Source: Haloglycomyces albus DSM 45210 (GTDB lineage: Bacteria > Actinomycetota > Actinomycetes > Mycobacteriales > Micromonosporaceae). Taken from it: a stretch of DNA of 64,000 nt. The position numbers were made by a program, and so were the translations under genes. Every line of letters begins with the position of its first letter. Position 1 is the first letter of the stretch. The notes beneath the pieces are model-generated. The model made no database searches. It was not told the DNA's origin and saw only the letters and a program-made list of their open reading frames with translations. Location: contig NZ_AZUQ01000001.1 in the NCBI RefSeq assembly GCF_000527155.1, forward strand, positions 3,361,889-3,425,888, written 5' to 3'. Positions 4,007 to 48,207 of the stretch are shown piece after piece.

Positions 4007-5353
4007 TCAGCCGCGATACCGGTTGATCCTGCGGACCAGTGTCATGGCCGGTACCGCATAGGCTCCCTGACGTTTCGATCGCAGCTGAACTTCCTGGTCG
4101 TTTGATACCACGATGACCGAGCGCCCTCGGGGCTCCACCCGCGCCATATCGATGATCACATCGTCGGCGATCTCCCCCTTGGCGCTGAACAGCACCCGGA
4201 CTCCGCGAGCCGCCGGAGCGGTCCCGAACACCGGATCGGAACCGTCGAAAACCACGGTGACCTCGGCATTCGATTGCGCCGCAAGCACGCCGAGCCCACG
4301 AACAAGACGTTCACGCTGTTCCTCGAGCGTCAGGGAATCCTTCCAGGCGGTCAAGGTCACGTTATAGCCGTCCACGATCAGATGCGGGTACGGGAGGGAC
4401 AGAAGGCTGTCAAGGTGCGCGGGGTCGTCCGGCTCCAAGGCTCGCGCCCTGTCCGCCTGTAGGGTTTCCGGTTCAGCGCAGCGGTCGTAGGCGATGTAAT
4501 CGGCCGGTCGCATATCGGTGGGGTCGATACCCAGCTCGCGTCGAATACCGCTCGCGGTGCCGCTCAATGTTTCCAGCAGCAGCCAGAGCCGGCTGGAATG
4601 CAATTGTTTCGATTCCCGCTCATGCTGTCGCAGAACCTCCAGTTCCGCCCGTAGGTCCTCGATCTCCGACTCCATCCGTCGGCGCTCGTTTTTTCGTTCT
4701 TTTTTGGCCTGTTTCAGTCGCCCTTTTTCAGCGGCGAGATCGCTGCGGAGCTTGTCATGAGTGCCGTTGAGGTCGTACACCGATTGCCGCAGGGCTCGCA
4801 GTTCTCTATGCAGATCCGCCGCCGCTTGACGCTGATCGGCCAGCGCCTGTTTCAATTTGGCGTTTTCCTTCTCGGCCTGCCGTAGCTTGTCCTCCTCGGC
4901 TCGCGGAGGTGCCGGTGGCTGCGGTGGCTGTGGCGGTTCGGGGCGTCGATCGGCTTCCATTGCCGCTACGGCGGCGCGGACGGTGTCGCGCCAGTGTTCG
5001 GGTTGGAGCAGGTAGGCCAGGGCCGCGGCCAGCGCCGGCTCGGTCAAGGGAGGAGGATTGTGCTCCAGAAACCGCTGCACGAGCTCGTCGCCGGACTCGG
5101 AGACGATCCCGGCGACGTCACGGCGAAACTGCGGGTTCGTTTCCAGTTCGCGGATCAGGGCCGCCTGCCCCAGTTTGGCGCGTTTAGCCTGATTGAATTT
5201 CAGGAATTTTCGCAGGGCTTTTGGGGTGTTGGCCATTCCCAAGCCCGGTAGTGCCGACGAGGTGAGGTCGACGATGCGTTTGCGGGCCATGTCCGGTAGG
5301 AACACGGGAATGGTGGAATCTTCAGCGGGCGCTTCGCCCGCTTCGGAGTTCAT
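4007..5353 (-). CDS. NYN-domain (YacP-like) protein with coiled coil
   Basis: 448 residues. Residues about 1-130 are helical and unassigned. A Pro-rich stretch near 140-150 precedes a long charged coiled coil (about 155-255, heptad-rich Lys/Glu/Arg). The C-terminal 120 residues are a NYN/YacP-type RNase domain: IVDGYNV supplies the first acidic residue, then VVFDGSDP, a central Asp in IADDVIIDM and VVSNDQEV. The PIN-like fold suggests a metal-dependent endoribonuclease acting on RNA in the cytosol; the coiled coil would mediate oligomerisation or partner binding. Such proteins are common in actinobacteria but their targets are unknown. The likely promoter is CTAACA-17-TACAAT at 5396-5424. Confidence 0.8.
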   Translation of the reverse strand: MNSEAGEAPAEDSTIPVFLPDMARKRIVDLTSSALPGLGMANTPKALRKFLKFNQAKRAKLGQAALIRELETNPQFRRDVAGIVSESGDELVQRFLEHNPPPLTEPALAAALAYLLQPEHWRDTVRAAVAAMEADRRPEPPQPPQPPAPPRAEEDKLRQAEKENAKLKQALADQRQAAADLHRELRALRQSVYDLNGTHDKLRSDLAAEKGRLKQAKKERKNERRRMESEIEDLRAELEVLRQHERESKQLHSSRLWLLLETLSGTASGIRRELGIDPTDMRPADYIAYDRCAEPETLQADRARALEPDDPAHLDSLLSLPYPHLIVDGYNVTLTAWKDSLTLEEQRERLVRGLGVLAAQSNAEVTVVFDGSDPVFGTAPAARGVRVLFSAKGEIADDVIIDMARVEPRGRSVIVVSNDQEVQLRSKRQGAYAVPAMTLVRRINRYRG

Positions 5354-5395
5354 GATCGACGGCAGTCGTCGCCGGTGTGGACGCTACCGCCAGGA

Positions 5396-5424
5396 ATTGT
5401 AGCGTTATCATCGCGTCGTGTTAG
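5396..5424 (-). promoter_or_regulatory. Candidate promoter of the NYN-protein gene
   Basis: A TACAAT -10 box (5396-5401) and CTAACA -35-like box (5419-5424) spaced by 17 nt on the minus strand. This would give a 5' UTR of about 35 nt. Confidence 0.4.
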
Positions 5425-5439
5425 GAAGACTGCCATGAC

Positions 5440-5456
5440 TATAGTGTGCCACTATA
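5440..5456. promoter_or_regulatory. Operator-like palindrome between NYN gene and pimB
   Basis: A perfect inverted repeat TATAGTG-TGC-CACTATA in the divergent spacer. It sits immediately upstream of the -35 of the NYN-gene promoter, so it could bind a dimeric regulator. The rest of the 304-bp spacer holds no convincing gene. Confidence 0.3.
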
Positions 5457-5657
5457 CCTATGCGAAGGTGGCCTGCCCCCACGACGTGGCATTTTCCACG
5501 ACACATTACCTTAACCTGGTTGCCGCGTTAGGTCACCTGTGGGTTTAGATTGTGATGTCGTAAGGGGTGAGCGCCGCACATGTGGCACCCCGGCGCGGAC
5601 CAAGCCGACCGCAACGTGCTGGGAACGGGAATCACCGATGGTTGGGAGCTGCCCACG

Positions 5658-7235
5658 ATGGGAAGAACGCTACTGGTCACCAACGATTTTCCACCCCGTT
5701 ACGGAGGTATCGAATCGTTCGTCTACGGCCTGGCCCGACGCCTGCCCGCCGACGAATTGATCGTCTACACCTCGAGTGCCCCCGGCGACCTCGACTTCGA
5801 CGCCGATCAACCCTTCCGGGTCGTCAGAGACCGTTCGTCGCTTTTGCTCCCCACCCCGCGAGTCCGCCGAACGGCCGTCGACATCGCCCGGCGTTTCGGC
5901 TGCGATCGAGTCTGGTTCGGTTCGGCCGCCCCGCTCGGACTCATCGCACACCATTTGAAGACCCACTCCCCCGTCGACCGTGCCGTGGCCCTGACACACG
6001 GACACGAGAGCGGCTGGGCCCGACTTCCGGTGTCCCTGCATCTCCTGCGCCGCATGGCACGCGGCTTGGACGTCATGACGTATCTGGGGGAATATACTCA
6101 TCGACGTCTCCAGCCCGCCGTCGGTGACTGCACCACGCTACGGCAATTGACGTTCGGCATCGATCTCGAACGCTTTCATCCGGATGTCGACGGTCGAGAG
6201 GTCCGACGGAAGTGGGGGCTGGGTCGAGCACCGGTCGTCGTCTGCGTTTCGCGCCTGGTACCACGCAAGGGCCACGCTCGCTTGATTCGTGCCGTCGCCT
6301 CGATTCACCGTCATCTACCCGACGTACGCCTGCTCATCGTCGGAGAAGGCCCTGAGGAGGCACGGCTGCGCGCCCTGACACGGCATTTGCGGCTCGACGA
6401 CACGGTGGTCTTCACCGGGGCCGTCGCTGCGGCGGACCTCGCCGAACATTACGCCGCCGCGGACGTATTCGCCATGCCGTGTTTCGATCGGCTGGGCGGA
6501 TTCGACTTCGAAGGCCTGGGAGCGGTGTTCCTCGAGGCCGCCGCAAGCGGGAAACCGGTCATTGCCGGCAATTCCGGAGGCGCTCCCGAAGCAGTTCTCC
6601 CCGGAAAATCAGGCCTTGTCGTCGCGGGAGAGGCCGACCTGGCCCATCAGCTACGTTTCCTACTTCAGCGACCGCATACGGCTGCGGCGATGGGTTCGGC
6701 CGGTCGGCTCTGGGTGGAGCGCACCTGGTCGTGGGAACGCCAGGCCGCCCGTTTCAATGAGCTCTTGACCTCGAACGAACCCGCCGACCTGAGCGGCTTA
6801 GAATTTCGGCTGGTCCGGTGCTTCCAGCAAACCGAGTTTCAGCGCCGTCATCAGAGCCTGCGCGCGATTTCCCGCGCCCAGCTTTTCGTAGAGCTTCGAA
6901 ATGTGGGTCTTAGCGGTCGATTCCGATACGAACAGTTGCTTAGCGATACCGGCCACGCTGAGTCCGTCGGCCAGCAGTTTCAACACCTGGGATTCGCGTG
7001 GGGACAATTGCGGGCCCGAGGGGGTCAAACGACGCTGCATTGCCGCGGCCAAATCGGCGGCGCTGAAGGCGGTGGGATTGGACGAGGCGTGACGTGCCGC
7101 GGCGACCACGTCGGCCGACGGAGCGCTCTTTGGCACGAAGGCACTGGCACCGGCGTCAAGAGCACCGAAAAGTTGGTCGTCACCGGCGTACATGGTCAGC
7201 ACCACGATTCCCATCTGCGGATGGGCCTTACGTAG
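5658..7235 (+). CDS. pimB: GT4 mannosyltransferase, PimB' type, with anomalous C-terminal overrun
   Basis: From the ATG at 5658 (GGGAG upstream) the first ~378 residues match the PimB' family from end to end. These enzymes transfer the second mannose from GDP-mannose to phosphatidylinositol monomannoside at the inner face of the membrane. Visible: LLVTNDFPPRYGGIESF at the N-terminus, THGHESGW, VSRLVPRKGH, and the GT4 donor-site block FEGLGAVFLEAAASGKPV followed by IAGNSGGAPE. Homologs stop just after the motif equivalent to ARFNELL (about 6770). Here the frame stays open for ~146 more residues, antisense through the response-regulator gene to 7235. Stops at 6790 and 6799 lie one frame away, so a lost stop, a small indel or an assembly error is likely. 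The tail is low-complexity and shadow-like. Confidence 0.85.
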   Translation: MGRTLLVTNDFPPRYGGIESFVYGLARRLPADELIVYTSSAPGDLDFDADQPFRVVRDRSSLLLPTPRVRRTAVDIARRFGCDRVWFGSAAPLGLIAHHLKTHSPVDRAVALTHGHESGWARLPVSLHLLRRMARGLDVMTYLGEYTHRRLQPAVGDCTTLRQLTFGIDLERFHPDVDGREVRRKWGLGRAPVVVCVSRLVPRKGHARLIRAVASIHRHLPDVRLLIVGEGPEEARLRALTRHLRLDDTVVFTGAVAAADLAEHYAAADVFAMPCFDRLGGFDFEGLGAVFLEAAASGKPVIAGNSGGAPEAVLPGKSGLVVAGEADLAHQLRFLLQRPHTAAAMGSAGRLWVERTWSWERQAARFNELLTSNEPADLSGLEFRLVRCFQQTEFQRRHQSLRAISRAQLFVELRNVGLSGRFRYEQLLSDTGHAESVGQQFQHLGFAWGQLRARGGQTTLHCRGQIGGAEGGGIGRGVTCRGDHVGRRSALWHEGTGTGVKSTEKLVVTGVHGQHHDSHLRMGLT

Positions 7236-7475
7236 TTTGCGAGTAGCGTCGAGACCGGATCCGTCGGGAAGCCGCAGATCCATGATCACCACGTTGGGTT
7301 GCAGTCGCGTCGCCAAGCGCAGAGCGTCGGTCACGGTGTCGGACTCTCCGATGACGGTAAAGTCGGGATCGCGATCAAAAGCGTGGCGGAGCCCTTTACG
7401 GATCAAATCGTGATCGTCAACAAGGAGAATCGATATCTGATTAGCGGTGTCCTCAACGGCCTCGGCAGCGGTCAT
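6798..7475 (-). CDS. NarL/LuxR-family response regulator
   Basis: 225 residues. The receiver domain covers about 15-130, with the acidic pair VDDHD, phospho-acceptor Asp66 in VIMDLRLPDGSG, a Thr in VVLTMYAG and Lys in VPKSA. A LuxR-type helix-turn-helix occupies about 155-215 (LSPRESQVLKLLADGLSVAG, then SESTAKTHISKLYEKLGAGN). It lies 68 nt downstream of its cognate-looking histidine kinase and is transcribed with it. Phosphorylation by the kinase should alter DNA binding; targets are unknown. Its 3' end is overlapped antisense by the pimB overrun. Confidence 0.92.
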   Translation of the reverse strand: MTAAEAVEDTANQISILLVDDHDLIRKGLRHAFDRDPDFTVIGESDTVTDALRLATRLQPNVVIMDLRLPDGSGLDATRKLRKAHPQMGIVVLTMYAGDDQLFGALDAGASAFVPKSAPSADVVAAARHASSNPTAFSAADLAAAMQRRLTPSGPQLSPRESQVLKLLADGLSVAGIAKQLFVSESTAKTHISKLYEKLGAGNRAQALMTALKLGLLEAPDQPKF

Positions 7476-7543
7476 AGTCCCTTATTCTCCTCATGATCGC
7501 AGTATTGTTATCCGACAAATACTCCCTTATTACTCTAAGGGAT

Positions 7544-9205
7544 TCAAGCTTCCGGTCTCGTATTCGTCGACCCCGGACGGGCAGAGGCGTGCAACACCAC
7601 CGCAACCGTGGTTCCTTGAGGTTCTCTGGGACGAATCTCCAGGGAGCCACGAATACGCTCGGCCCGCTCCGACATGATCGCCAGGCCATAGCGTCCCTCG
7701 TTCGCCTCACCACCGAGCCCTTGACCGTCGTCGGTCACCTCGACGCGCGCATAGGGCGGATCAACTTCGCACGTCACCCACAGATTCTGCGCGCGGGCGT
7801 GCTTTCGAGCGTTCGTAATGGCTTCCTGCGCGATACGCAGGAGCTCCGCTTCGGTACCGGCGGGGAGCCGAGCACCGCCCTCATCCAAGGACAAATGTAC
7901 TCGCAGACCGGCGGAGGAGCCAACCGTGCGGGCGAAATCAGCGATCGCGGAGGCCAGACCGCCTTTGCGGTCCACGTTCGAACGCAACTCGAACAGGGAG
8001 AAGCGCAGCTCTGTCACCAGCCTGGTGACCTCCGCACGCAGATCCTCCAGATAAGAGGCCGCTTCGTCGGCTCCCTCCGGAAGCTCCAGCAAAGCATTGT
8101 CGATCCCGTAACCCAGCATGGCCAATTCCTGCGCAATGCCGTCGTGGATCTCGCGAGCCAGGCGTTGCCGCTCCTCCGTGGTGGCCATTGACCGCACTTC
8201 TTCAAACAGCAAGGCGGTTTCCAACCTGAGCCCGGCTCCTCGGGTCACCTCGTCGACTCTGGGAACCATGACCGGAGTGATGGCGAGTGGATCATCCGAT
8301 TCCAGGGCGACCAGAGCCACCGTCCGCCCCTCTGCCACCAGGGGATAGACCATCGAGGATACGGCGCCTACGGTCGACCGGGAGAGTGACAGATGTCCGG
8401 TCTGAGGTTTCTGTCCCGCCCAAGCGTCGGCCATCATGGTGTTCATCTGCGGAGAGGTCTCCCAATCCGCTCGATCGGGCGACTTCTCCGCCAGCACCAC
8501 CATTCGCCGTCCGCTGGAGGCCGCCAACACCGCTACTCGATCCACCTGCGGCACCGTCGCCGCGGCATCGACGATTTCGGAGGCGATGCCGCCGGGATCC
8601 AGGGTGGAACCGGGCAATTGGCGGGCGACCACCCGCAACTGAGTCAATAGCGCGGCCGCTTCCTCATAGGGGCGCTCGGTCTCCTTGTGTCCAGTGAAAT
8701 GCGCGTGGCCGAGCCACCCGCCCACCATGGCCGCGGCGAATGAGAACGCCACGGCAACGCCCACCACGACCAGATAATCCGGCCGCTCGGCCACCAAAAC
8801 CGACTGATACTGAATTGCCAACCCCACCACCGCCAGCAAAGCCAGACCGACGGACTCCAACGGCCATTTGCGACGCGGTGCGGCGGCGTCGGGGCGGACG
8901 TTGAGCGCGGCGAATACCAGCGGAGCGACCAAATACGGCAGCATCCACGCCGGCTGGGGTCCGGTCGCCCACGTCGCCAGTAGAATCATCGCGACCTCGG
9001 CGAAGCGCCCGAACACCGCCAACCGACGGTTGGGATAGATCAGAGCCCCGGGCCCGGCGGCCAAAACCAACAGTCCGGTCCACGCCAAGACGTCGACCGC
9101 GTCGGTGGTCGCCAAACCCAGTACCAACACCAGAACGATCAGGGGACATCGCAACCAGAGTGCTCGACTTCGCCAGTATGTGGCCGTTTCGCTCTGATCG
9201 TCCAT
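7544..9205 (-). CDS. NarL-type sensor histidine kinase with multi-helix membrane input and GAF-like domain
   Basis: 553 residues. The first ~165 residues carry five or six membrane helices, like the MacS/MadS-type actinobacterial sensors. A GAF-like region follows (about 190-330, with VPQVDRVAVLAA and VYPLVAEGRTVALVALES). The HisKA_3 dimerisation box is ERQRLAREIHDGIAQELAML, with the phospho-acceptor His. The HATPase_c domain ends the protein (RIAQEAITNARKHARA as N box, DDGQGL, GRYGLAIMSERAE). It pairs with the response regulator just downstream. Upstream, the acyl-CoA ligase gene ends 30 nt before it, so all three may form one transcript. The signal is unknown; membrane or lipid state is a reasonable guess from context. 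Confidence 0.92.
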   Translation of the reverse strand: MDDQSETATYWRSRALWLRCPLIVLVLVLGLATTDAVDVLAWTGLLVLAAGPGALIYPNRRLAVFGRFAEVAMILLATWATGPQPAWMLPYLVAPLVFAALNVRPDAAAPRRKWPLESVGLALLAVVGLAIQYQSVLVAERPDYLVVVGVAVAFSFAAAMVGGWLGHAHFTGHKETERPYEEAAALLTQLRVVARQLPGSTLDPGGIASEIVDAAATVPQVDRVAVLAASSGRRMVVLAEKSPDRADWETSPQMNTMMADAWAGQKPQTGHLSLSRSTVGAVSSMVYPLVAEGRTVALVALESDDPLAITPVMVPRVDEVTRGAGLRLETALLFEEVRSMATTEERQRLAREIHDGIAQELAMLGYGIDNALLELPEGADEAASYLEDLRAEVTRLVTELRFSLFELRSNVDRKGGLASAIADFARTVGSSAGLRVHLSLDEGGARLPAGTEAELLRIAQEAITNARKHARAQNLWVTCEVDPPYARVEVTDDGQGLGGEANEGRYGLAIMSERAERIRGSLEIRPREPQGTTVAVVLHASARPGSTNTRPEA

Positions 9206-9235: not shown

Positions 9236-11038
9236 CTACTTCTTCTGAGCGTAGAGGTCGTTGATCGTCTCCTCGTATTTTTTCACGACCACATGGCGTT
9301 TGACACTCATCTTCGGGGTGAGTTCGCCCGATTCTTCGCTGAAGAAGTCCGGAAGCACCACGAACCGCTTGATCTGTTCCGCCTTCGACACAGTGGCGTT
9401 GGCTTGGTCAACGGTCTTCTGGATGTCGGCGTTGAGGTCTTCATTCTCGACGACGTCTGCCACCGCCGTGTCCCGAGGCAGGTTGTGCCGTTCCAGCCAA
9501 TCGGGAAGGCTGTCGGCGTCCAGGGTGATGAGGGCGGCTATGTAATGCCGTCCGTCGCCGACGACGGTGGTGCATCCGACCACCGGATTGGTATCGACGA
9601 TCTTTTCCAGCTGCGAGGGGGCGACGTTCTTACCACCGGAGGTGACGATGAGGTCTTTCTTCCGGCCGGTGATGTAGACGAACCCGTCGTCGTCGATTTC
9701 GGCGAGGTCACCGGTGGCGAACCAACCCTCTTCGTCGAGAACCTTGGCGGTGGCCTCCTCGTTGTTCCAGTACCCCTGGAACACCTGGGGCCCCTTGGCC
9801 TCCAGTTCACCGTCGTCGGCCACGCGCAACGTCGTTCCCGGGGTGGGTCGGCCGATCGAACCGACCTTGATCGCGTGCTCCAGGTTGATCGACAGCACCG
9901 GAGACGTCTCGGTCAGTCCGTAACCTTCGTAAATGGTGATTCCAACTCCGCGGAAGAAGTGTCCCAGCTCGGCACCGAGCGGTGCCCCACCGCTGATGGC
10001 CGAGGTGCATTGCCCGCCCACCGCGGCGCGCAGCTTGGAAAAGACCAGTTTGTCCCAGAGCTTGTGCCGCAGCTTCAGTTTCAGTCCTGGGCCGCCCGGT
10101 TGTTCGAGCGCACGCGAGTACTCCTTGGCCGTAGCGGCGGCCTTCAAAAACAGCTTTTCCTTGCCGTCGTCGACGGCCTTCTGGTGGGCACTGTTGTAGA
10201 CCTTTTCGAACACACGGGGAATCGCCAGCAGCGTGCTGGGTTTGAAAACCGGCATGATCTCATTGAGCTTCGTCCGGTCCGGGACGTGCCCGAGACACGT
10301 CCGCGACTCCACTCCGGCCACCTGAACGATTCGGGCCAAGACGTGAGCCAGGGGAAGGAACATCAAAAGACGGGAGTTCTCCATCAGGATGGAGGGCAGG
10401 TCTTCCACCACGTTGCGGATATCGGCCAGAAGGTTGCGGTGAGTGAGAATGCAGCCTTTGGAACGCCCGGTCGTACCCGAGGTATAAATGATCGACGCGA
10501 TGTCGTCGGCCTGACGGGACTGACGCCGCTCATTGATGTCGACGGTGGAGTCTTTTCCGGCATCGGTCAGTTCCCGGACCGCTCCGGGCTCGCCGTCGAT
10601 CGTCCACAGGGTATCGAGCCCGTCGACCAGCCCGGTCAACATCTCGCGCTGTTCGTCCGTTTCGCACACACAGTACTTGGTGTCCGAGTCCGAAAGGATC
10701 CATTTCGCCTGTTCCGATGAGGAGGACTCGTAGACGGGAACGGTGACTCCGCCCGCGGCCCAAATGGAATAGTCGAAGAGTGTCCATTCGTACCTGGTGC
10801 GGGACATGAGGCCAACTCGATCACCCGGCTCTACACCCGCTTCCACCAGGCCTTGAGCGATGGCAATCACCTGATCGCGGAACTCCGCACACGTGACCGG
10901 GGTCCAACTGGCACCATCATCGTACGTACGCTCATAAAGAATATCGTCGGGGTGTTCTTCTGCGTTGCGCCACAAGGTGGTGCAGGTGTTTTCGTGGTCG
11001 GCGACTTCCACCGTTGCGGGGACAGAGAATTCGCGCAT
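9236..11038 (-). CDS. Long-chain fatty acid--CoA ligase (FadD15-like AMP-binding enzyme)
   Basis: 600 residues, the usual length of actinobacterial FadD15-type acyl-CoA synthetases. It activates long-chain fatty acids with ATP and CoA through an acyl-adenylate. Motifs: IIYTSGTTGRSKGCILTHRN (P-loop-like AMP site), YEGYGLTETSPVLSIN (adenylate binding), GWFATGDLAEIDDDGFVYIT, and GRKKDLIVTSGGKNVAPSQL with the hinge and catalytic Lys region. It is probably cytosolic or membrane-associated. CGGAG lies upstream of the ATG. It leads a possible operon with the two-component genes downstream. An unusually AT-rich stretch upstream (about 11160-11340) holds palindromes and probably the promoter. Confidence 0.93.
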   Translation of the reverse strand: MREFSVPATVEVADHENTCTTLWRNAEEHPDDILYERTYDDGASWTPVTCAEFRDQVIAIAQGLVEAGVEPGDRVGLMSRTRYEWTLFDYSIWAAGGVTVPVYESSSSEQAKWILSDSDTKYCVCETDEQREMLTGLVDGLDTLWTIDGEPGAVRELTDAGKDSTVDINERRQSRQADDIASIIYTSGTTGRSKGCILTHRNLLADIRNVVEDLPSILMENSRLLMFLPLAHVLARIVQVAGVESRTCLGHVPDRTKLNEIMPVFKPSTLLAIPRVFEKVYNSAHQKAVDDGKEKLFLKAAATAKEYSRALEQPGGPGLKLKLRHKLWDKLVFSKLRAAVGGQCTSAISGGAPLGAELGHFFRGVGITIYEGYGLTETSPVLSINLEHAIKVGSIGRPTPGTTLRVADDGELEAKGPQVFQGYWNNEEATAKVLDEEGWFATGDLAEIDDDGFVYITGRKKDLIVTSGGKNVAPSQLEKIVDTNPVVGCTTVVGDGRHYIAALITLDADSLPDWLERHNLPRDTAVADVVENEDLNADIQKTVDQANATVSKAEQIKRFVVLPDFFSEESGELTPKMSVKRHVVVKKYEETINDLYAQKK

Positions 11039-11717: not shown

Positions 11718-12665
11718 GTGAGCCTGACTATCGGTGTAGACATTGGGGGAACCAAGGTCGCGGCAGCCGTTGTAGACGAAAAGGGAGAGATTCTACAAAG
11801 CTCCCGCCGCCCCACTCCTTCCCAGAACGCGGACGGCCTCATTCAAGCGGTGGCCGAATGCGTCAACGAACTACGCGCGCAACACGACGTAGAGGCTATC
11901 GGAGTGGGTACGGCGGGCTGGATCTCCTCGGACCGGTCCACGCTCCTGTATTCGCCGAACATGGGGATGCGCGATGTTCCCATGCGTGATTTGATAGCCG
12001 AGCAGTGCAAGCTGCCGGTGTTCATCGAAAACGACGCGAACGTGGCCATGTGGGCGGAGTTTCGATTCGGTGCCGCTCAGGACGCCAACACCGCCGTTCT
12101 CTACACCATCGGCACGGGTGTCGGTGGAGCCATCGTCGTCGACGGCAACATGGTGCGCGGCACTCATGGAACCGCCGGGGAACTGGGGCACGTCCGCGTC
12201 GTACCCGACGGACGCCGCTGCGGCTGCGGACGTTGGGGATGTTTGGAACAGTACGCCTCCGGTGACGCCCTGACGTTGCATGCTCAGGAGGCCGCCAAGT
12301 CCAATCCGCACGAGGCGGAATACCTCCTGTCGCTGGCAGGCGACGATGCCGACCAGATCACGGGGGCCATGGTCACCAAAGCGGCACAGAACGACGACCG
12401 CACGGCACTGCGAGCGTTCAATTTCATCGGCCGTTTCCTAGGAAACGCGGCCGCCGACATGGTTCAGTCACTCGACCCGGGAGTCATTCTCCTCGGCGGC
12501 GGCGTGGTCGACGCGGGAGACTTCCTGCTGGCACCGGTACGTCGCTATCTGAACGACGGCTTGGCCGCACGACGCGAGACGCCGTACGGAATCGTGCGAG
12601 CCGCACGCATGGGGCAGAACGCGGGAGTCGTCGGAGCCGCCGACCTCGCTCGCCAGGACCTTTAG
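11718..12665 (+). CDS. glk: ROK-family glucokinase
   Basis: 315 residues from the GTG at 11718, preceded by GGAGG at a good distance. The ROK kinase layout is complete: phosphate-1 motif IGVDIGGTKVAAAVVD at the N-terminus, VFIENDANVAMWAE with the catalytic Asp, TIGTGVGGAIVVDG (phosphate-2), HVRVVPDG, and the zinc motif CGCGRWGCLEQYASG. The C-terminus holds VILLGGGVVDAGD, the adenosine motif. It resembles the GlkA glucokinase of streptomycetes, which phosphorylates glucose with ATP and takes part in carbon repression there. It could use the glucose released by the trehalase-like GH15 domain encoded at 55.3-57.8 kb. An open frame reaches upstream to 11541 but lacks family sequence. Confidence 0.9.
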   Translation: MSLTIGVDIGGTKVAAAVVDEKGEILQSSRRPTPSQNADGLIQAVAECVNELRAQHDVEAIGVGTAGWISSDRSTLLYSPNMGMRDVPMRDLIAEQCKLPVFIENDANVAMWAEFRFGAAQDANTAVLYTIGTGVGGAIVVDGNMVRGTHGTAGELGHVRVVPDGRRCGCGRWGCLEQYASGDALTLHAQEAAKSNPHEAEYLLSLAGDDADQITGAMVTKAAQNDDRTALRAFNFIGRFLGNAAADMVQSLDPGVILLGGGVVDAGDFLLAPVRRYLNDGLAARRETPYGIVRAARMGQNAGVVGAADLARQDL

Positions 12666-16213: not shown

Positions 16214-17443
16214 TCAGCGGCTACGCAGCGTCAGTACCGTAATGTCACTGGGTGCGCCGATACGGACGCGTGGCCCCCAGGTTCCGGCCCCGCGCGTGAC
16301 ATAGAGACGGGTGTCGCCGTAACGGTCGAGACCGGCCACGGTCGGATTCGGTCCAGCCGCTATCAACGGCCCCGGCCATACTTGACCCCCATGGGTATGG
16401 CCGGACAACTGGAGGTCCACATTCCAGTCCATCGCGTCCTCAATGACGACGGGTTGATGCGCCAAGAGCACGGACGCGCGGTTCGGATCGCGGTCCCCCA
16501 AGGCGGCTTGAAAGTCAGGACCATGTGATTGTCCATTATCGAACTCTTCCGCCTGGACGTCGTCGACCCCCGCAAGATCGAAATGCGTCAGCTCAGTGCG
16601 TGTGTTCTCCAATGGCCGCAGACCCAGATTACGAATCTCATCCAACCACTCCGCCGCACCCGAATAGTATTCGTGGTTACCGGTAACGAAATAGGCGCCC
16701 TGTCGCGCTCGCAGGTGCGCCAGCGGCGCGGCGGCGTCTCCCAGTTCCTCCACCGTACCGTCGACCAGGTCGCCTACCACGGCGATGGCGTCGGCCTGGG
16801 TTCCATTGATGACGTCCACGATCTGTTCGGAGTGCCTCCGCCCCGCCATGGCCGAGAGGTGGATGTCGCTGACCAGAGCAATACGGAAACCGTCGCCCGA
16901 TCGGGACAGTTTGGACAGCGGCACTTCCACACCTTTGACGCGCGGCGGCTTCACCGCCTGATAGGTGCCGTAACCGGTGGTGACCAGTCCAATCGTGCCG
17001 GCCGTCAGTGCCATACCGCCCGCCAACGCACGCCGACGTGACACTCCGGCCGACGTCGACGCGTCATTCGGCTCGTCGCCCGGGGCGGAAACCTCGGTTT
17101 GTTCCTCCGCATCGTCCTGTGACGTCTGCCGAGTGATACGGCGGTTGAGAATCCAGCGGAACGGTTCCATGACGAGTAGAGCGATGGTCGTGAAGAGGAG
17201 AACGACCATCCAGGTGTAGCCGACCCAGCTGACCGTCGCTTCCAACCACATGGGACTCGGCACGCGGGGAACGAAGAACGCCGCGAGAGCGAAAACCAGC
17301 AATATTCCGAGCAATACCGCTCCCCAGCGCCGCCAAACCGATCCGGCCGGGGTTGGGTTACGAATCAGTCGCCACCACAGGTAGAGATGGGCTCCCGAGA
17401 GCAAAAGGACGATAACGGCGAGTACGAGCAGCAATTGCCACAT
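16214..17443 (-). CDS. Membrane-anchored metallophosphoesterase
   Basis: 409 residues. Four N-terminal membrane helices (about 1-100, and a further hydrophobic stretch at 140-160 after a charged loop) precede a calcineurin-like phosphoesterase domain. All metal-ligand blocks are present: SDIHLSA (D-x-H), VGDLVDG (GD), VTGNHEY (GNHE), LLAHQP and SGHTHGGQ (GHxH). The layout matches YaeI/YkuE-type phosphoesterases, some of which act on lipid-linked pyrophosphates. The active domain would follow the last helix, probably outside the membrane. No Shine-Dalgarno is evident before its ATG. Before insertion of the cassette at 17.6-20.2 kb it may have followed the 329-residue membrane-protein gene. Confidence 0.88.
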   Translation of the reverse strand: MWQLLLVLAVIVLLLSGAHLYLWWRLIRNPTPAGSVWRRWGAVLLGILLVFALAAFFVPRVPSPMWLEATVSWVGYTWMVVLLFTTIALLVMEPFRWILNRRITRQTSQDDAEEQTEVSAPGDEPNDASTSAGVSRRRALAGGMALTAGTIGLVTTGYGTYQAVKPPRVKGVEVPLSKLSRSGDGFRIALVSDIHLSAMAGRRHSEQIVDVINGTQADAIAVVGDLVDGTVEELGDAAAPLAHLRARQGAYFVTGNHEYYSGAAEWLDEIRNLGLRPLENTRTELTHFDLAGVDDVQAEEFDNGQSHGPDFQAALGDRDPNRASVLLAHQPVVIEDAMDWNVDLQLSGHTHGGQVWPGPLIAAGPNPTVAGLDRYGDTRLYVTRGAGTWGPRVRIGAPSDITVLTLRSR

Positions 17444-17584
17444 ATTGACACTTTCGACGCGGTGGGGCGGGTGCTTGGCAAGGTGGAGTCAGCACGAACG
17501 CCGACCGCACCGAGTTTCCGGTTCCGTGACAACTCTACTCCGCTGAACGCGGGAGCCGCTGACTTCGAACGTCATACGGTATCG

Positions 17585-17608
17585 CCCCAACGGTGTCCTT
17601 CACCGCAC
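17585..17608. repeat. Left 24-bp direct repeat of a 2.6-kb cassette
   Basis: Identical over 24 bp to 20193-20216 in the same orientation. It contains a small inverted repeat (CGGTG-TCCTT-CACCG). The pair brackets a NUDIX gene, an XRE regulator and two small unknown genes, as an attachment-site or insertion duplication would. Confidence 0.7.
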
Positions 17609-17680
17609 TGAACAACAGAAGGGCGATAGCGCGTGCTCTGTCCCTTTTACCGGGGCTCTTATTGTACTCAACTGCGGCTG

Positions 17681-17686
17681 TACGAT
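17681..17686 (+). promoter_or_regulatory. -10 box of probable leaderless NUDIX-gene promoter
   Basis: TACGAT, then 6 nt, then the GTG at 17693. This supports the short start over the longer open frame from 17633. Confidence 0.5.
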
Positions 17687-17692
17687 GGCGCT

Positions 17693-18223
17693 GTGGCTGA
17701 ATGGACGATTCATAACGAGCGTGTTGTAGACGATTCCCGCCGAGCTCATTGGTCGATCGCCGAAGTCGAACTGCCCGACGGTACCGAATTCGAACAATAC
17801 GTCTACCGAGCTCCGGCGGCAGCGATGATGCTAATGGTTGTCGACGGTGCGGCGTTGATGATTCGTCGGCATCGGTTCGTCATTGATAGATGGGTTTGGG
17901 AACTCCCCGGCGGTTATCGCGAGGACGGCGAATCAATGATGGACTGTGCTATTCGGGAGGCCGAGGAAGAAACCGGCTGGCGTCCTTCGAAAGTGCGCCC
18001 ACTTATTGAATTCCAACCTTGGGTGGCCACCGCCGACGCGGTGAATTCGTTGTACATCGCAGAACACGCTGAAATCGTCCGCGAGCATTCCGACGTCAAC
18101 GAAGCGTCCGAAATGAAGTGGATTCCGTTCGAACGCGTGCCAGAGCTGATTCGCAACGGCGAGGTGATCGGTTCAGCGTCCATTATCGGGTTGCAAGCGG
18201 CTATGCTGGACTTTCGGCAATAG
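17693..18223 (+). CDS. NUDIX hydrolase
   Basis: 176 residues. The Nudix box is complete within GGYREDGESMMDCAIREAEE followed by ETGW, giving the GxxxxxExxxxxxxREUxEE pattern (U hydrophobic). The preceding VWELPGG is typical of ADP-ribose/nucleoside diphosphate pyrophosphatases. It should be a cytosolic Mg-dependent hydrolase of a nucleoside diphosphate linked to another moiety; the substrate is not deducible. Its last 51 nt overlap, tail to tail, the end of the XRE regulator gene. It is the leftmost gene in the cassette bounded by 24-bp repeats. Confidence 0.88.
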   Translation: MAEWTIHNERVVDDSRRAHWSIAEVELPDGTEFEQYVYRAPAAAMMLMVVDGAALMIRRHRFVIDRWVWELPGGYREDGESMMDCAIREAEEETGWRPSKVRPLIEFQPWVATADAVNSLYIAEHAEIVREHSDVNEASEMKWIPFERVPELIRNGEVIGSASIIGLQAAMLDFRQ

Positions 18224-19417
18224 GCAGGCAATACCGTCAATGAGCCCCGAGACTTCGGAATTAGACCGATACGGCACCAGCGCGACTGCAAGCCGACGAA
18301 GATACTCGTGCGAGCGCTGCGACCGCAACTTGTGAGCGAGAGCGAGTGCGTGGGTTCCTGCATCGGTCGCTCTCTCAATGTCGCCGGTGGAGGCGGAGGA
18401 TTCGGCCAGTAGCGATAGGTTGAACATGTGCCCTCGCACGTATGTTTGGTTGTTCATTGTGAGGGAAGCAGTCGCGCATTCGGTGGCGGCGTGGTGCTCA
18501 CCGATGGCGAGTAGGGTATGGCCGGTTCGGGCATGCAGGTAAGCATCGCATAGGTATTTAGCCCATGCAGGGTCGTTGTCGGGAGAAATTTTGCTGAATT
18601 CGTCTTCTGCGAGGCGGAGGGATTGGTAGGTACGCTTGGTGTCGTTCTGGAGCGCGTATCCGTGTGCGCTGCTCATGTAGACCTCGGACACCAGTGATGG
18701 GAGCCCTGATCGCACTGCGAACCGTAGAGCGGATTGGGCTAGTTGTGTTGCGTCGTCGCCGTTTTGCAGGAATGCCGCTTGATGTGCGCGTGCGGCTAGG
18801 ATTTCACATGATAGGGCGTCGTCATGCGCTTCGACGGCAAGTTCCAGGGCTACTTTGAAATGTCGCCTAGCAAGACTGTGCAGTCCTGAGTCGTATGCTG
18901 TCCACCCTGCCAGTTGTGCGAGTTCAGCTGTGGTCTGTTGTAGATCCCGTGCTACAGGACTGTGTCCGTGGCTTTTCAATAGCGGCAGTGCTTCGAAGTT
19001 CAGCGCGTTCGACACCGCGTCTCTGACCGCTGATCCACCATAGGCGTTGTCCATGGACCGGTAGGCTTCCAACCGTTCTTTAAGGATATGCAGGTCGGTT
19101 GAATCCGGGTCCGGGTCATCGGTGGATGGGGTCGAGTAGCCATAAGCAAGGAGAGAAATGCTTTGCAGTATGGTTCTACGTTTCACCTCGTTATCTCCTC
19201 CGTGGCAGAGCTCTTCGAGCAGGCCATCTGCGTCTAGCGCACTGTCGATAGCGGCACATGTTGCCGCGTCAGGTTGTCGGTGCCCGTTTTCAATATTGCG
19301 GAGGTGAGAAACAGACATGCGCACCTTCCGCGCCAGCATTGACCGTGGCATCCCGCGCGCTTGACGTATCGCACGCATCCCCATGCCAAATCTAAGGCGC
19401 GAATCGTGCCCTGTCAC
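18173..19417 (-). CDS. XRE-family regulator with TPR-like C-terminal region
   Basis: About 414 residues from a GTG at 19417; the open frame runs further up to 19750, but that part is antisense to another gene and unlike a regulator. The N-terminus is an XRE helix-turn-helix (MRAIRQARGMPRSMLARKVR, then MSVSHLRNIENGHRQPDAAT). The remaining ~330 residues are helical repeats resembling the TPR-like region of streptomycete regulators of this type. It probably controls the divergent pair of small genes and itself through the TGAATCA repeats in the 43-bp spacer. Its DNA is less GC-rich than its surroundings, in keeping with acquisition. The exact start is uncertain by a few codons. Confidence 0.75.
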   Translation of the reverse strand: MTGHDSRLRFGMGMRAIRQARGMPRSMLARKVRMSVSHLRNIENGHRQPDAATCAAIDSALDADGLLEELCHGGDNEVKRRTILQSISLLAYGYSTPSTDDPDPDSTDLHILKERLEAYRSMDNAYGGSAVRDAVSNALNFEALPLLKSHGHSPVARDLQQTTAELAQLAGWTAYDSGLHSLARRHFKVALELAVEAHDDALSCEILAARAHQAAFLQNGDDATQLAQSALRFAVRSGLPSLVSEVYMSSAHGYALQNDTKRTYQSLRLAEDEFSKISPDNDPAWAKYLCDAYLHARTGHTLLAIGEHHAATECATASLTMNNQTYVRGHMFNLSLLAESSASTGDIERATDAGTHALALAHKLRSQRSHEYLRRLAVALVPYRSNSEVSGLIDGIACLLPKVQHSRLQPDNGR

Positions 19418-19432
19418 CCCTGATACCCCCAA

Positions 19433-19449
19433 TGAATCAGTTTGAATCA
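19433..19449. promoter_or_regulatory. Candidate operator: TGAATCA direct repeats
   Basis: TGAATCA occurs twice (19433-19439 and 19443-19449), start to start 10 bp, about one helical turn, in the 43-bp spacer between the XRE gene and the divergent small gene. The position suits autoregulation. Confidence 0.35.
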
Positions 19450-19460
19450 CTAGCCCTCTG

Positions 19461-19814
19461 GTGCTCGGTGCCACTCTGACCGATAGTACAGATACGGAGT
19501 TCGAGCGATCTGGAGGTGGAACGATCATAGGACCACGCAATGCAGCCGGCCATTTCACAGCCATCGGACAGCGATTTGAATACACGTTTGAACCACAAAA
19601 GGACAGCGCTAACACTCCAGTCTGGGTATATGGCGCAGCGGAGAGCCTCGTGTACTCCGTTCGGGTGTCGCCGTCGGGAGCGGTGGAATCTGAAGAGTGG
19701 TACAGCCACTGGTGGGCTAAAGATCCCGATTGGAAAGCAAGGGTGAACAAGGCGCTATTGGTAGCTCTGGCTGACCGACATAGCGATGTGATCGGTAGAG
19801 GTGGGACAGCATGA
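19461..19814 (+). CDS. Small protein of unknown function, cassette gene 1
   Basis: 117 residues from a GTG at 19461; I do not recognise a family. The composition is ordinary, soluble and aromatic-rich in the middle (EEWYSHWWAKDPDWKARVNKA). No signal peptide or membrane segment is seen. It is divergent from the XRE regulator with only 43 bp between and is followed by a second small gene with a 4-nt ATGA overlap, so the two are translationally coupled. A regulator next to a small coupled pair recalls toxin-antitoxin or defence-type modules, but nothing in the sequences proves this. Confidence 0.6.
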   Translation: MLGATLTDSTDTEFERSGGGTIIGPRNAAGHFTAIGQRFEYTFEPQKDSANTPVWVYGAAESLVYSVRVSPSGAVESEEWYSHWWAKDPDWKARVNKALLVALADRHSDVIGRGGTA

Positions 19815-20032
19815 CAGTGACATCAAAGATGCATGGTTGGCACATCGAACCCGAAACCGAGTGGTGGCATTTCTACAACCGACGCGGACGGTTTCTCTCG
19901 ATCTCACGGCGGTTGGGGATCGAGCCGGAGTGGCAAGGCACGGCTAGCAACATGAAACCTGGGCAGAAAATCAACTTGTATCGGCAGGCCCTTGATATGT
20001 TGCCGGACAACTGGCGTGATGCCGGAGGTTAA
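19811..20032 (+). CDS. Small protein of unknown function, cassette gene 2
   Basis: 73 residues, starting with an ATG that overlaps the previous stop (ATGA). It has a Trp/His-rich N-terminal part (HGWHIEPETEWWHFYNRRGR) and ends in a short basic-acidic helix. No known domain is recognised and there is no membrane segment. It is probably co-expressed with, and a partner of, the preceding 117-residue protein. A good hairpin terminator follows at 20085-20122. Confidence 0.55.
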   Translation: MTVTSKMHGWHIEPETEWWHFYNRRGRFLSISRRLGIEPEWQGTASNMKPGQKINLYRQALDMLPDNWRDAGG

Positions 20033-20084
20033 GGGAGAGCCTGATTGGAAAGTGTGCCCAGAGCCGGGGACGGAGGGCGCACTG

Positions 20085-20122
20085 GCCCGGGGATCTGACC
20101 GACACCGGATTCCCGGGCTTTT
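20085..20122 (+). terminator. Rho-independent terminator of the two-gene cassette operon
   Basis: GCCCGGGGAT (20085-20094) pairs with ATTCCCGGGC (20109-20118) with one mismatch, followed by TTTT. It ends the small-gene operon inside the right repeat. Confidence 0.7.
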
Positions 20123-20192
20123 GTACCTCTAACGTCATTAGATGCTTAACGCCTCAAACATTGGTGCGTGCCGAAACTCGGCAGAGCATCTA

Positions 20193-20216
20193 CCCCAACG
20201 GTGTCCTTCACCGCAC
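20193..20216. repeat. Right 24-bp direct repeat of the 2.6-kb cassette
   Basis: Exact second copy of 17585-17608, same orientation, 30 bp past the stop of the neighbouring membrane-protein gene. It may originally have been that gene's 3' region (a weak hairpin) into which the cassette inserted. Confidence 0.7.
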
Positions 20217-20245
20217 CGGCTCTGACGAACCGTTCGATCCCGCGG

Positions 20246-21235
20246 TCAGTCCTTCCCACCGTCTTTATCGGGGTGATCTTCGGCCTTGGTCTCGCCCTCG
20301 ATCGTGGTGGTCTTCGCCTTCGAACGATCGGTCTGACGTTCCAAGAGCTCATCCACGTCGACCAGCTTGAACTTGGACATGAAGTCCCCCCAGCCGATGG
20401 TGTCGGGAATGGTTTCACGAACCGTCATCACCGTGGTTCCGGGAATTCGCAAGGTCACCGATGCCGGAGAACCAAGATGCTTCTGTTGCAGAACGGCTTC
20501 GGTGGGGACCCCTGTGGGAGACTGGGACAATTCGAAAACCGCTGCCTCGTTCTCCTTGGCCTGCGGCACCCATTCGATGTCTCGCTTCAAAACCACGCCG
20601 ACGGCGTTGTTCTTACCCTCGATGGATCCGCTGAAGTTCAAGGCGAGGGTATTGGCGTCTCCTCGGGCTTGAAGCAGAGTCCACGCGCTGTCCTGCAGAT
20701 CGACCAGCTGTCCTTGAAACCTCCGAACCGCTCCGGCGATTTGAGCGCGTCGGCGCCTCTCTCCCAAGGGTTTCGAGACGGCCCGGAACGAAAGAACCAC
20801 CAGTCCCAGGACCACGATCCCAATGGACACCGCCAACAGCGCCGAGAGCCCCGCTTGAAGGCTCATGAGCATGGCGCTTCCTGTGGCGATACCCGCTACG
20901 ACTCCCATCAGGGGTTTCAGCCAGGCCGGTCCGGTCCCCTTATGCGCCTTCAACGGCGTCAACAGGCCCGTTCCGGTGGCAATGACCAGACTGATTCCGA
21001 GCACGGTCGGTTCCGGGGCCCCCGACCCGTCCAGCCACCGCATCGCCCACCAGGCGATAAAGGCGGAGCCGACCAGGGTCGTCGGAATCAACATCAAGGC
21101 CACGAACGTCAATTGCTGTTGACTGGGTCGATTGTTGGCCAACATGATCGGTCCCAGCATCAACAACGGCAGAACCACCCCGAACAGGCCGACTTGAACT
21201 GCGCTGATGACCACAATTGGCGTTAGGGAAGACAA
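20246..21235 (-). CDS. Uncharacterised multi-pass membrane protein
   Basis: 329 residues from a TTG with GAGG upstream; I recognise no family. Residues 1-150 form about five membrane helices (an AIVLLM-rich N-terminus with WWAMRWLDGSG between helices 2 and 3). They are followed by a basic linker (GERRRRAQIAGAVRRF), a soluble domain of about 120 residues and a Lys/Asp-rich tail (KAEDHPDKDGGKD). The soluble part is predicted cytoplasmic from the positive linker. It lies upstream of the metallophosphoesterase in the same direction if the repeat-bounded cassette is removed, hinting that the two were neighbours. Confidence 0.6.
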   Translation of the reverse strand: MSSLTPIVVISAVQVGLFGVVLPLLMLGPIMLANNRPSQQQLTFVALMLIPTTLVGSAFIAWWAMRWLDGSGAPEPTVLGISLVIATGTGLLTPLKAHKGTGPAWLKPLMGVVAGIATGSAMLMSLQAGLSALLAVSIGIVVLGLVVLSFRAVSKPLGERRRRAQIAGAVRRFQGQLVDLQDSAWTLLQARGDANTLALNFSGSIEGKNNAVGVVLKRDIEWVPQAKENEAAVFELSQSPTGVPTEAVLQQKHLGSPASVTLRIPGTTVMTVRETIPDTIGWGDFMSKFKLVDVDELLERQTDRSKAKTTTIEGETKAEDHPDKDGGKD

Positions 21236-37705: not shown

Positions 37706-37735
37706 GGTCGTGGACCCGAATTCGGGTCCACGACC
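37706..37735. terminator. Perfect 30-bp palindrome, probable terminator
   Basis: GGTCGTGGACCCGAA is followed at once by its exact complement. It lies between the TnpB remnant and the MFS gene and could end transcription from the oxidoreductase gene; no U-tract follows. Confidence 0.45.
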
Positions 37736-45599: not shown

Positions 45600-46085
45600 G
45601 TGTTTCCTCGGCTGTGGATCCCCTTGTTCGGTTCGATCATGATAACCGGAGGCTGTGCCGACGACCCGGAGGTCAGTAGACATGTCGACCTCCAGCCGAT
45701 CGAGGCCGCAGGAGAATCCCATGCGGACGCCCGAGGCTCCGCCGTCGTCCGGTCCTTCGCACGGGGAACCGACGTGGAGTTGGAGGTCGAGGGTCTCCTG
45801 GAGTCGGAAGCGTACGTCGCTCATATTCACAACCAACCCTGCCAACACGATCCACCGGGCGGCGACCACTGGAAACGCGACCCCGACGCCGGAGAAGGGG
45901 CCGACAACGAAATTCACCTGAACTTCCACACCTTCGCCGACGGCACCGCCCAAAGTTCTACGCACAGCGGTTTGGAAGCCCACGAAGACATGAAATCCAT
46001 CGTCGTTCACCTGGCAACAGTCCCCGATGACCTCGACATGAAAACAGACCGCGCCCTCTGCGGCGACGTAGGAGGTGACCGCTGA
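45600..46085 (+). CDS. Cu/Zn superoxide dismutase-like lipoprotein
   Basis: 161 residues from a GTG with AGGTGAAAG upstream. The lipobox ITGGC (about 15-19) predicts a surface lipoprotein. The rest resembles the SodC fold: paired metal histidines in VAHIHNQPC, further His/Asp in GGDHW, EIHLNFHTF and SIVVHLAT, and two Cys (HNQPC near the first histidines and ALCGD at the end) that would form the usual disulphide. It is shorter than most SodC proteins, so activity is uncertain. It might instead bind copper; it precedes two copper-dependent LPMOs. Its stop codon lies inside the left arm of the stem-loop repeat. Confidence 0.65.
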   Translation: MFPRLWIPLFGSIMITGGCADDPEVSRHVDLQPIEAAGESHADARGSAVVRSFARGTDVELEVEGLLESEAYVAHIHNQPCQHDPPGGDHWKRDPDAGEGADNEIHLNFHTFADGTAQSSTHSGLEAHEDMKSIVVHLATVPDDLDMKTDRALCGDVGGDR

Positions 46086-46189
46086 GGTTGTTCCAGGTGC
46101 TGCAGATTTGCGCGAGGAGGACTCGCAGCGGCCTCATGGCCGCAAGAGGCCCCCACAGCGTAAATCTGCAGCACCTGGAACAACCTCAG
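46082..46189. repeat. Stem-loop repeat element, copy 1
   Basis: Perfect 28-bp inverted arms at 46082-46109 and 46162-46189. The interior carries a second hairpin, GCGGCC-TCAT-GGCCGC. A related copy with compensating changes is at 48208-48315. It overlaps the stop of the SOD-like gene, so one job may be transcription termination. The element is too long and too structured for a plain terminator. Confidence 0.75.
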
Positions 46190-46450
46190 CTCCTCTCCAG
46201 CTCTACCGCTTCTACGCTTCGCTCGAAGCTCGCCAGTGACGTAAAGGACTGGTGGGATAGTCGAGTGTCTCCTGAAGGAGCAGCCAATCCCACCGCCGCA
46301 CACACGCCCTTCGCGTTGCCAGCGGCTCGCCGGTTGGCTCGTCTGTGGGGATGGTTGAGTGATTGAGCTCGTTAGGGAACACAGCCGGCTCTACCGCTTC
46401 CACGCATCGCTGGAAGCTCGCCGACTGATTACTCCATGGAGCCAAGGTGG
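46190..46450. repeat. Repeat-rich non-coding DNA left of LPMO 1
   Basis: Contains units beginning AGCTCTACCGC or GGCTCTACCGC (46199 and 46387) and ending GCTCGCC, plus GCGGCTCGCCGGTTGGC near 46320. Related units occur in inverted orientation at 48049-48207, with 20 bp identical next to each stem-loop element. The stretch from here to 46672 has no gene and becomes AT-rich just before the LPMO, probably its promoter. Confidence 0.55.
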
Positions 46451-46672
46451 TGATTGGGTTCGTTCCAAGAAAAGCCACCGCCATCACCGGATCACAGCAA
46501 CTGCAGTGTCCTGCAGGGCATCTTAATCTGCTGCCATGCCGTACGTATCGGCATCGAGTTTCACGGTATTCTCTTCAAATTGATCTAACAGTTAAGTTTC
46601 ATAAGTTTGACATTATTACTTTAGTTCACTATATTAATAGATCCATACCCATCCATTACAAATGGAGGAACA

Positions 46673-47479: not shown

Positions 47480-48207
47480 CCACCAATGCGGTACAGCGCT
47501 TCCCCTCACTTAGCTGAAGTGCGTTAGCGCAAAACCCCTCCATTACGACCACCTCATCAACGTGTCGGCTCTCAGCGACACCTAAGCAAATCAATGCCGG
47601 AGTCCAATAAGGCCTCTGGCCGAAATCTCTAAAAGAAAATCCCCAAAACGGTTTGGTACGCAACCAAATCACAGAGCCGGAATCGAGACCGGATATCGCC
47701 TTCGTCGGCAAACTCAACGATCATGCCGCCAGCGCATAATTCCGTGCCCCCATAGGGCCTTCCACATCCTCAAGATAAGCCCGTACAGCATGCGCCCATA
47801 CTTCTACCCAACAAGCCGTCTGTGGCGCTCAGAAGTAGCCACAGCGCTCGCCGGTGCTCCAGGATTCCTACGTTTCCATCACGACCGCACAGCAATACAA
47901 CATACAGTGCCCCTGAAGCAGGGATCGGCCACGACGCTGCCCCACCCCATGAATCACCACCAACCGATCTGCAAGCACGAAGCGCACCATACATTCGTCT
48001 GCATTTCCGAATTGACCCTAACAACCGCACCTCCCCGGAGGTGCTAACCGGCGAGCCGCTAACGAAGCGCCACAGGCGCAAGTGCAGCGGCGGTAGAGCT
48101 GCCTGTGCTTTCCAAAAGAGCTCTACCACCACACCCTCCCCACGGATACGCCAACTGGCGAGCCGCTAGCACTGAAAGTGCGACGCGGCGGTAGAGCTGG
48201 AGAGGAG
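47480..48207. other. Non-coding, repeat-containing region between the two LPMO genes
   Basis: No convincing gene. The left part (47520-47600) carries an inverted GTGTCG/CGACAC hairpin. The right part (about 47960-48207) contains units related to 46190-46450 in inverted orientation (gcggtagagct at 48090 and 48188). It may be decayed mobile DNA, but no transposase can be recognised. Confidence 0.4.

Follow-up and report, generated by a model that had tools for sequence, protein, structure and literature searches.

NUDIX genes and large NsdA-like XRE genes are frequent in actinomycete integrative and conjugative elements (AICEs), for which passages of PMC3218068 describe a shared mdp-nud-xre cluster, and part of PMC11706625 lists XRE and NUDIX among AICE components. 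Passages of PMC3218068 also describe Pif of pSAM2, a NUDIX protein, as a conjugal immunity protein that blocks entry of the same element by a mechanism called unknown there. Decayed AICEs (DAICEs), according to parts of PMC9513070, have cargo between direct repeats and empty sites in relatives, with cis mobilization suggested as possible, and carry traB. A cis-mobilizable element (CIME), in the relevant section of PMC8369830, denotes a region of a Streptomyces island that is bounded by an att site and moves along with an adjoining ICE. Here, we examined a segment carrying a NUDIX and an XRE gene between two 24-bp direct repeats in a 64-kb window, i.e. the whole stretch of 64,000 nucleotides analysed (C1:3361889-3425888 of its own genome), from Haloglycomyces albus DSM 45210. 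The segment is probably an integrated accessory cassette of AICE origin, and the mobile-cassette part of this explanation is much firmer than the part dealing with function. Supporting it are a repeat that is unique and beyond simulated chance, the lowest GC content of any stretch of its length in the window, adjacency of the flanking genes in another genome and repeat-bracketed modules elsewhere. The same evidence supports the passively moved cassette proposed in a first-pass annotation of this DNA, insofar as an integrase-less accessory insertion is concerned.

The two copies of the repeat (CCCCAACGGTGTCCTTCACCGCAC) are 100% identical and lie in the same orientation, as had been reported (coordinates of all features are collected in Table 1). 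No exact direct repeat in the window is longer, and the maxima in 30 simulated first-order Markov windows were 15 to 20 bp. When up to 3 mismatches were allowed, no third copy was found in the window (0 in 100 shuffles), and the whole genome (3,535,419 bases) contained two forward and no reverse copies, with 0 and 0 for a backwards control. The repeat was therefore not the hairpin common in the genome that the annotation had allowed for, and a common hairpin or repetitive extragenic palindromic (REP) repeat was ruled out as its identity. Outer inverted arms that differ in sequence enclose each copy (17577-17629 and 20183-20223) and span the cassette edge; these may be due to chance and were not used. 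The block of 2,584 bases between the copies is 56.5% GC, and is thus less GC-rich than its surroundings, as claimed (60.6% for the window, 63.7% and 61.1% for the 3-kb flanks). Its GC content falls below that of all 615 equal-length stretches tested in the window, the lowest of which was close (56.6%). No match to PF00589 or PF00239 falls within the cassette, in agreement with the reported absence of an integrase.

Homologues of the flanking genes in the genome G013 support insertion of the segment between two minus-strand genes, as originally proposed. The homologues of the 329-aa membrane protein and the metallophosphoesterase (38% and 50% protein identity) lie side by side in G013, with alignment ends about 70 bp apart; pepN is close by, as it is in the window, and a further 329-aa homologue, in tandem, lies between the pair and pepN. 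A homologue of the 329-aa protein is also near pepN in 22 genomes of genus g12. A gene order ancestral in all relatives was also considered; in the 23 other genomes where a 329-aa homologue is clear, no cassette genes were found in the flank examined beside it. A pattern search of the genome contigs with the 329-aa protein gave 42 matches, none of them confirmed. The 24-bp repeats would be attL and attR, generated by site-specific insertion into the gap between the two flanking genes, immediately behind the 329-aa gene.

A foreign segment with the same genes could instead have entered by illegitimate or homologous recombination, the repeat being a duplicated terminator-like hairpin formed with no site-specific recombinase. 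The repeat does fold as a small hairpin just downstream of the 329-aa gene, outside any tRNA gene and with no recombinase gene beside it. The identity between the copies breaks off sharply at 24 bp, and the cassette yielded no remnant of an integrase, xis or RepSA gene. However, in several relatives the repeats around the module are tRNA-end sequences of the type that integrases commonly use as att sites, and the window's own genome includes a second island, free of integrase and bracketed by a 24-bp repeat of a tRNA end. We consider entry by such chance recombination improbable.

That second island, of 6.4 kb, lies between a tRNA-Ser gene and a 24-bp repeat of the tRNA-Ser 3' end (1352950 and 1359367), and none of the genome's PF00589 or PF00239 matches falls inside it. 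It encodes an NsdA-family regulator (2.3e-44) and paralogues of the two small cassette genes, A and B, at about 1.3534-1.3539 Mb (28 to 32% identity for A and 26 to 29% for B), and its GC content is 55.3%, compared with 59.3 and 60.9% outside. Two further loci in this genome, with an integrase gene and RepSA, lie between repeats of tRNA-Ala and tRNA-Ser ends of at least 45 bp that are 5.1 and 11.6 kb apart. RepSA matches in the genome were found only at these places, at 1.07 and 1.70 Mb. A third gene B-like ORF, of 101 aa, was found outside the AICE-like element at C1:1681692-1681997 (L177).

The gene set given in the first-pass annotation was recovered, namely the NUDIX and XRE genes and the 117-aa and 73-aa genes A and B, which overlap by 4 bp (ATGA), between the two minus-strand flank genes. 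The NUDIX frame is open from a GTG at 17633, and the GTG at 17693 is preferred as the start because most relatives align from about there. The Nudix box has the consensus GX5EX7REUXEEXGU. In the cassette protein the box (GYREDGESMMDCAIREAEEETG) is intact, with Ala at the first U, the PF00293 match is over the cut-off, and matches to PDB chains reached 1.8e-13, several of these being named ADP-ribose pyrophosphatase. The XRE gene, which probably starts near GTG 19417 to give 414 aa, is convergent with the NUDIX gene, and their 3' ends overlap by about 50 bp. Two copies of TGAATCA, a 7-mer that occurs six times on the + strand of the window, form a candidate operator. Gene A perhaps starts downstream of 19461, near 19524. 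Behind the last gene, where the segment was claimed to end in its own terminator, there is a strong hairpin with a short run of T residues, but a consensus terminator scan of the window did not list it. The description of the proteins as unrecognised stands for the two small proteins but not for the NUDIX and XRE proteins, which belong to recognisable families. The profile searches suggested for the small proteins assigned them to no family, with nothing over the cut-off in Pfam or NCBIfam and nothing at E 0.1 in PADLOC or PHROGs, and gene A had no match among PDB sequences. Elsewhere in the window there are perfect palindromes of 44 bp (57849-57892) and 30 bp (37706-37735), and a cluster of direct and inverted exact repeats of about 19-40 bp at 46081-48644.

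Table 1. Features of the cassette, its flanks and related loci (window positions unless stated otherwise)
Feature	Position	Strand	Remarks
Metallophosphoesterase gene, left flank, host	16214..17443	-	PF00149 1.6e-14; adjoins 329-aa homologue in G013
Left 24-bp direct repeat, candidate att site	17585..17608	+	Contains CGGTG-TCCTT-CACCG inverted arms
NUDIX hydrolase gene, ADP-ribose-pyrophosphatase-like	17693..18223	+	Pfam PF00293 1.4e-16; Nudix box GYREDGESMMDCAIREAEEETG
XRE-TPR regulator gene, NsdA family	18173..19417	-	NCBIfam NF053720 NsdA_fam_reg 2.4e-78, 264.6 bits, cut-off 75
Two TGAATCA direct repeats 10 bp apart, candidate operator	19433..19449		Between XRE start and gene A
Gene A, 117-aa ORF, W-rich small protein	19461..19814	+	No family match
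Gene B, 73-aa small protein	19811..20032	+	ATGA-coupled (4-bp overlap) to gene A
Terminator-like hairpin after gene B, with short T-run	20084..20119	+	z -3.6 for 20030-20130
Right 24-bp direct repeat, candidate att site	20193..20216	+	29 bp past stop of 329-aa gene
329-aa membrane protein gene, right flank, host	20246..21235	-	
Second island	Own genome C1:1352950-1359390		L011 3951-10001 and on
Two AICE-like elements, possible helpers	Own genome C1:1071016-1076162 and C1:1698006-1709613		L175-L178
Repeats straddling the NUDIX gene in related loci	L110, L121, L142, L146, L148, L151		45, 44, 50, 41, 64 and 20 bp, respectively

The NUDIX protein matched 147 of the 354 genomes of the family at 1e-20, with its own genome counted, and the surroundings of such matches were examined in a sample of 60 loci (57 of 20 kb and three shorter), mostly high-scoring ones. 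A convergent XRE gene of the same type was found directly behind the NUDIX gene in 49 of the 60, and 15 of these 49 also carry both of two small genes, types s124 and s90, behind the XRE gene. All nine of the regulators scanned, those of the window, the second island (L011) and loci L013, L014, L016, L027, L091, L110 and L121, belong to the NCBIfam NsdA family. Upstream matches to the proteins of locus L110 were to the integrase in 17 loci, RepSA in 12 and xis in 11, with both RepSA and integrase in 11, and some of these were fragments.

As had been suggested, the cassette was sought elsewhere, and the module proved to be bracketed by repeats in other genomes, e.g. G185. Exact repeats of at least 20 bp straddling the NUDIX gene were found with 7-kb arms in six of the 60 loci; with 4.5-kb arms the count was 5/60, compared with 1/59 and 0/59 for axes shifted by 5.3 kb. 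In a first set of 20 loci plus L027, most of which also belong to the 60-locus sample, 4-kb arms revealed repeats of 41-64 bp in L088, L091 and L095 and a 20-bp tRNA-arm repeat in L089, with no repeat of at least 20 bp in the rest. ARAGORN called a tRNA at the left copy in L110, L121, L142 and L151. In L148 a tRNA-Pro-like sequence almost identical to that of L110 drew no ARAGORN call, and L146 has no tRNA.

The bracketed loci form a series running from complete to integrase-less. In L110 the order is tRNA-Pro with the repeat, integrase (PF00589 1e-15), a xis-like HTH_17 protein (24.2 bits, just under the cut-off of 27), RepSA (PF20199 2.7e-139), other genes, NUDIX, XRE, s124, s90 and the second repeat, and integrase, xis and RepSA are also full in L113 and L149. 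RepSA is reduced to its last 143 to 152 residues, accompanied by a piece of xis, in L142 (also L091) and L148 (also L088), the integrase being near-whole in the former and in pieces in the latter. L121 retains a RepSA scrap of less than 50 residues with no integrase or xis match, and three further ORFs in it had no Pfam hit. L146 (also L095), from G185, matched none of integrase, xis and RepSA, and its NUDIX and XRE genes lie between 41-bp terminator-like copies 2,495 bp apart (oriented 9634-9674 and 12129-12169). No other locus comes as close to the window cassette in structure. The right repeat in G185 is accompanied by a 77-bp imperfect copy (87% identity) of the end of the gene that precedes the left repeat. 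No small-gene pair is evident on the + strand of the G185 cassette, and a search for its empty site found no orthologous junction in one congener.

The s124/s90 pair (about 124 and 90 aa) adjoins the att repeat in L110, L121, L142, L148 and others, which is the position held by genes A and B in the window. In L121 and L148 the s90 frame ends about 26 bp short of the second repeat, while the s90 similarity ends 30 bp (L110) and 53 bp (L142) before the repeat and the open frame runs on through it. Neither s124 nor s90 had a Pfam hit, and by eye they are unlike genes A and B. One module island, in L113 (G314, oriented 5174-8896), carries cargo that by eye resembles a cytosine methyltransferase, a Vsr-like endonuclease and a large ATPase.

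Because the decay series runs from complete to integrase-less, a remnant is likelier than a passenger cassette that is still carried. The element would most likely have lost its integrase and replication genes, and the cassette may still move in cis through the recombinase of another element. A different view of the same loci is that minimal cassettes of 2.5-2.6 kb, in which two repeats enclose NUDIX, an NsdA-type regulator and small genes or a spacer, are recurrent integrase-less mobile units. They would insert at hairpins just behind host genes by means of recombinases supplied in trans by co-resident AICEs, and would harbour a self-regulated exclusion module and an undescribed family of W-rich small proteins. 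Members would be the cassettes of the window and of G185 and, in larger form, the tRNA-Ser island of the window's own genome. We regard this as unlikely, plain decay being the likelier course given the decay series.

The distribution of the module also bears on whether it is a vertically inherited regulatory locus of the family that has changed position, with a fortuitous repeat. The closest NUDIX relatives found belong to other genera within the family (G171 69%, G004 66% and G371 66%), as such descent might produce. However, the module is patchy, in that five genomes of g12 match the NUDIX protein at 1e-20 and only G171 (69%) and G161 (61%) exceed 60%. It also sits at different sites in G000, G171 and G004 and is repeat-bracketed in several genomes. 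Vertical descent is a most doubtful explanation.

The NUDIX protein also had matches in plasmids, and the neighbourhoods were read in 10 of 40 records. Two of these, a Streptomyces formicae plasmid and Streptomyces sp. NBC_01304, have an annotated convergent pair of NUDIX and helix-turn-helix or XRE genes, and in the former an integrase and a replication initiator are found near the pair. In NBC_01546 the gene convergent with NUDIX is annotated as hypothetical. The regulators of all three belong to the NsdA family, and those of the S. formicae plasmid and NBC_01304 had no tblastn match to the window XRE protein. Two of the 10 records are unannotated, an XRE match lying behind the NUDIX gene in L021; a partial unannotated XRE match was found in L015, and four records had no convergent regulator next to NUDIX. 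Plasmid searches found no match to the cassette segment or to gene B, and gene A had none in phages or plasmids.

Gene A-like ORFs were found opposite XRE genes in G004 (L027, three ORFs), G171 (L026 and L081) and G371 (L082), and in G371 and G171 they stand opposite XRE-DUF5753 genes. In L027 the NUDIX and XRE proteins are 63% and 35% identical to those of the window. The order NUDIX, XRE and two ATGA-coupled small genes recurs at another place, in L081. A profile, A1, matched in G171 (8.7e-4) and G004 (0.007), and the remaining gene A-like ORFs were assigned by eye. Eight aligned members of the family share two invariant Trp residues. A pattern search of the genome contigs with gene A gave 95 matches, none confirmed. 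Single-sequence structure models of A and B were poor (mean pLDDT 39.5 and 63.5), too weak for a claim about the fold, and Foldseek returned no significant match for the gene B model.

With regard to function, the NsdA-type protein would bind the promoter region between the XRE gene and gene A, controlling itself and the A-B operon. The NUDIX enzyme would hydrolyse a nucleotide resembling ADP-ribose and, on the model of Pif of pSAM2, would limit entry of related elements, and A and B would be small effectors encoded by the element. The first-pass annotation had seen a resemblance to defence or toxin-antitoxin islands. In such a system A and B would be a toxin pair or an effector under the control of XRE, with NUDIX removing or making a nucleotide signal, which is compatible with a mobile cassette. 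A divergent regulator, two coupled small genes and a NUDIX protein of the ADP-ribose type are consistent with this, and other module-bearing islands contain a gene for a Fic protein or genes that look Dcm- and Vsr-like by eye. According to passages of PMC6262351 and PMC10364602, the latter of which continues with 'However', a type II toxin-antitoxin role has been suggested for XRE-DUF397 pairs. Against this, PADLOC gave only a generic NUDIX candidate (PDC-S07) and HTH models and nothing for the small proteins, neither A nor B matched a toxin family, and the structural searches described above were equally unproductive. The claimed resemblance thus found no specific model, and a defence or toxin-antitoxin function is unproven and, in our view, rather unlikely. 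An AICE-type nud-xre end module is the stronger reading.

Several observations weigh against an AICE origin. No tRNA genes were found in the window, so a tRNA attachment site there was rejected, and the lack of a third copy of the 24-bp repeat in the genome leaves no indicator of its recombinase. The empty arrangement was seen in G013 alone, and in the 22 g12 genomes the flank examined beside the 329-aa homologue (1.5 kb in 21, more in G011) showed no phosphoesterase. A search for remnants of integrase, xis or RepSA gave nothing better than E 0.32 in the cassette, whose derivation from a larger element is therefore argued by analogy. Among the 60 module loci, 43 had nothing in the upstream part of the stretch that matched the L110 integrase and 54 had no straddling repeat within 7 kb, so that an island setting is shown for a minority of the copies. 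Finally, the gene A/B family is defined by weak sequence similarity, and profile A1 matched in three of the 354 family genomes, including the window's own.

If an AICE origin is correct, the nud-xre module at the end of AICEs survives between att-like repeats after the remainder of the element has gone, and perhaps moves alone. The cassette would also offer a small system for studying how NUDIX proteins such as Pif give conjugal immunity, and would point to a small-protein family kept by such islands near the att site. That nud-xre genes occur in AICEs, and that decayed AICEs lie between repeats, is already published. The minimal integrase-less form of the cassette and the small-protein family seem new, in that nothing on a nud-xre cassette lacking an integrase, or on the gene A/B family, turned up in the open literature searched; the family is nameless and was not targeted by name.

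Compared with the regulators NsdA and NsdB, the XRE protein passes the NsdA_fam_reg subfamily cut-off but falls below both equivalog cut-offs (116.6 of 830 bits for NsdA and 86.6 of 700 bits for NsdB). The whiJ-iosA and abaA-bldB loci of Streptomyces also have an XRE gene beside a small-protein gene, but the window cassette is without DUF397 or DUF5753 and NUDIX belongs to the module instead. The cassette has no recombination or transfer genes and would resemble a CIME if the perfect repeat that brackets it acts as att, but no helper with the same repeat was found in this genome at up to 3 mismatches. It shares with decayed AICEs the cargo genes between two direct repeats, but keeps no truncated integrase, and DAICEs have traB. 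The cassette differs from an AICE of the pSAM2 type in being without integrase, xis, RepSA and TraB/FtsK (from Pfam matches of the cassette genes) and in not lying at a tRNA gene. It has in common with AICEs the NUDIX and NsdA-like xre genes, which are frequent but not obligatory there, and in relatives this pair forms the end of tRNA-integrated islands with integrase and RepSA. The proposed likeness of the cassette NUDIX protein to Pif is an analogy between NUDIX proteins, and the exact 24-bp direct repeat would correspond to the att repeats that flank an AICE.

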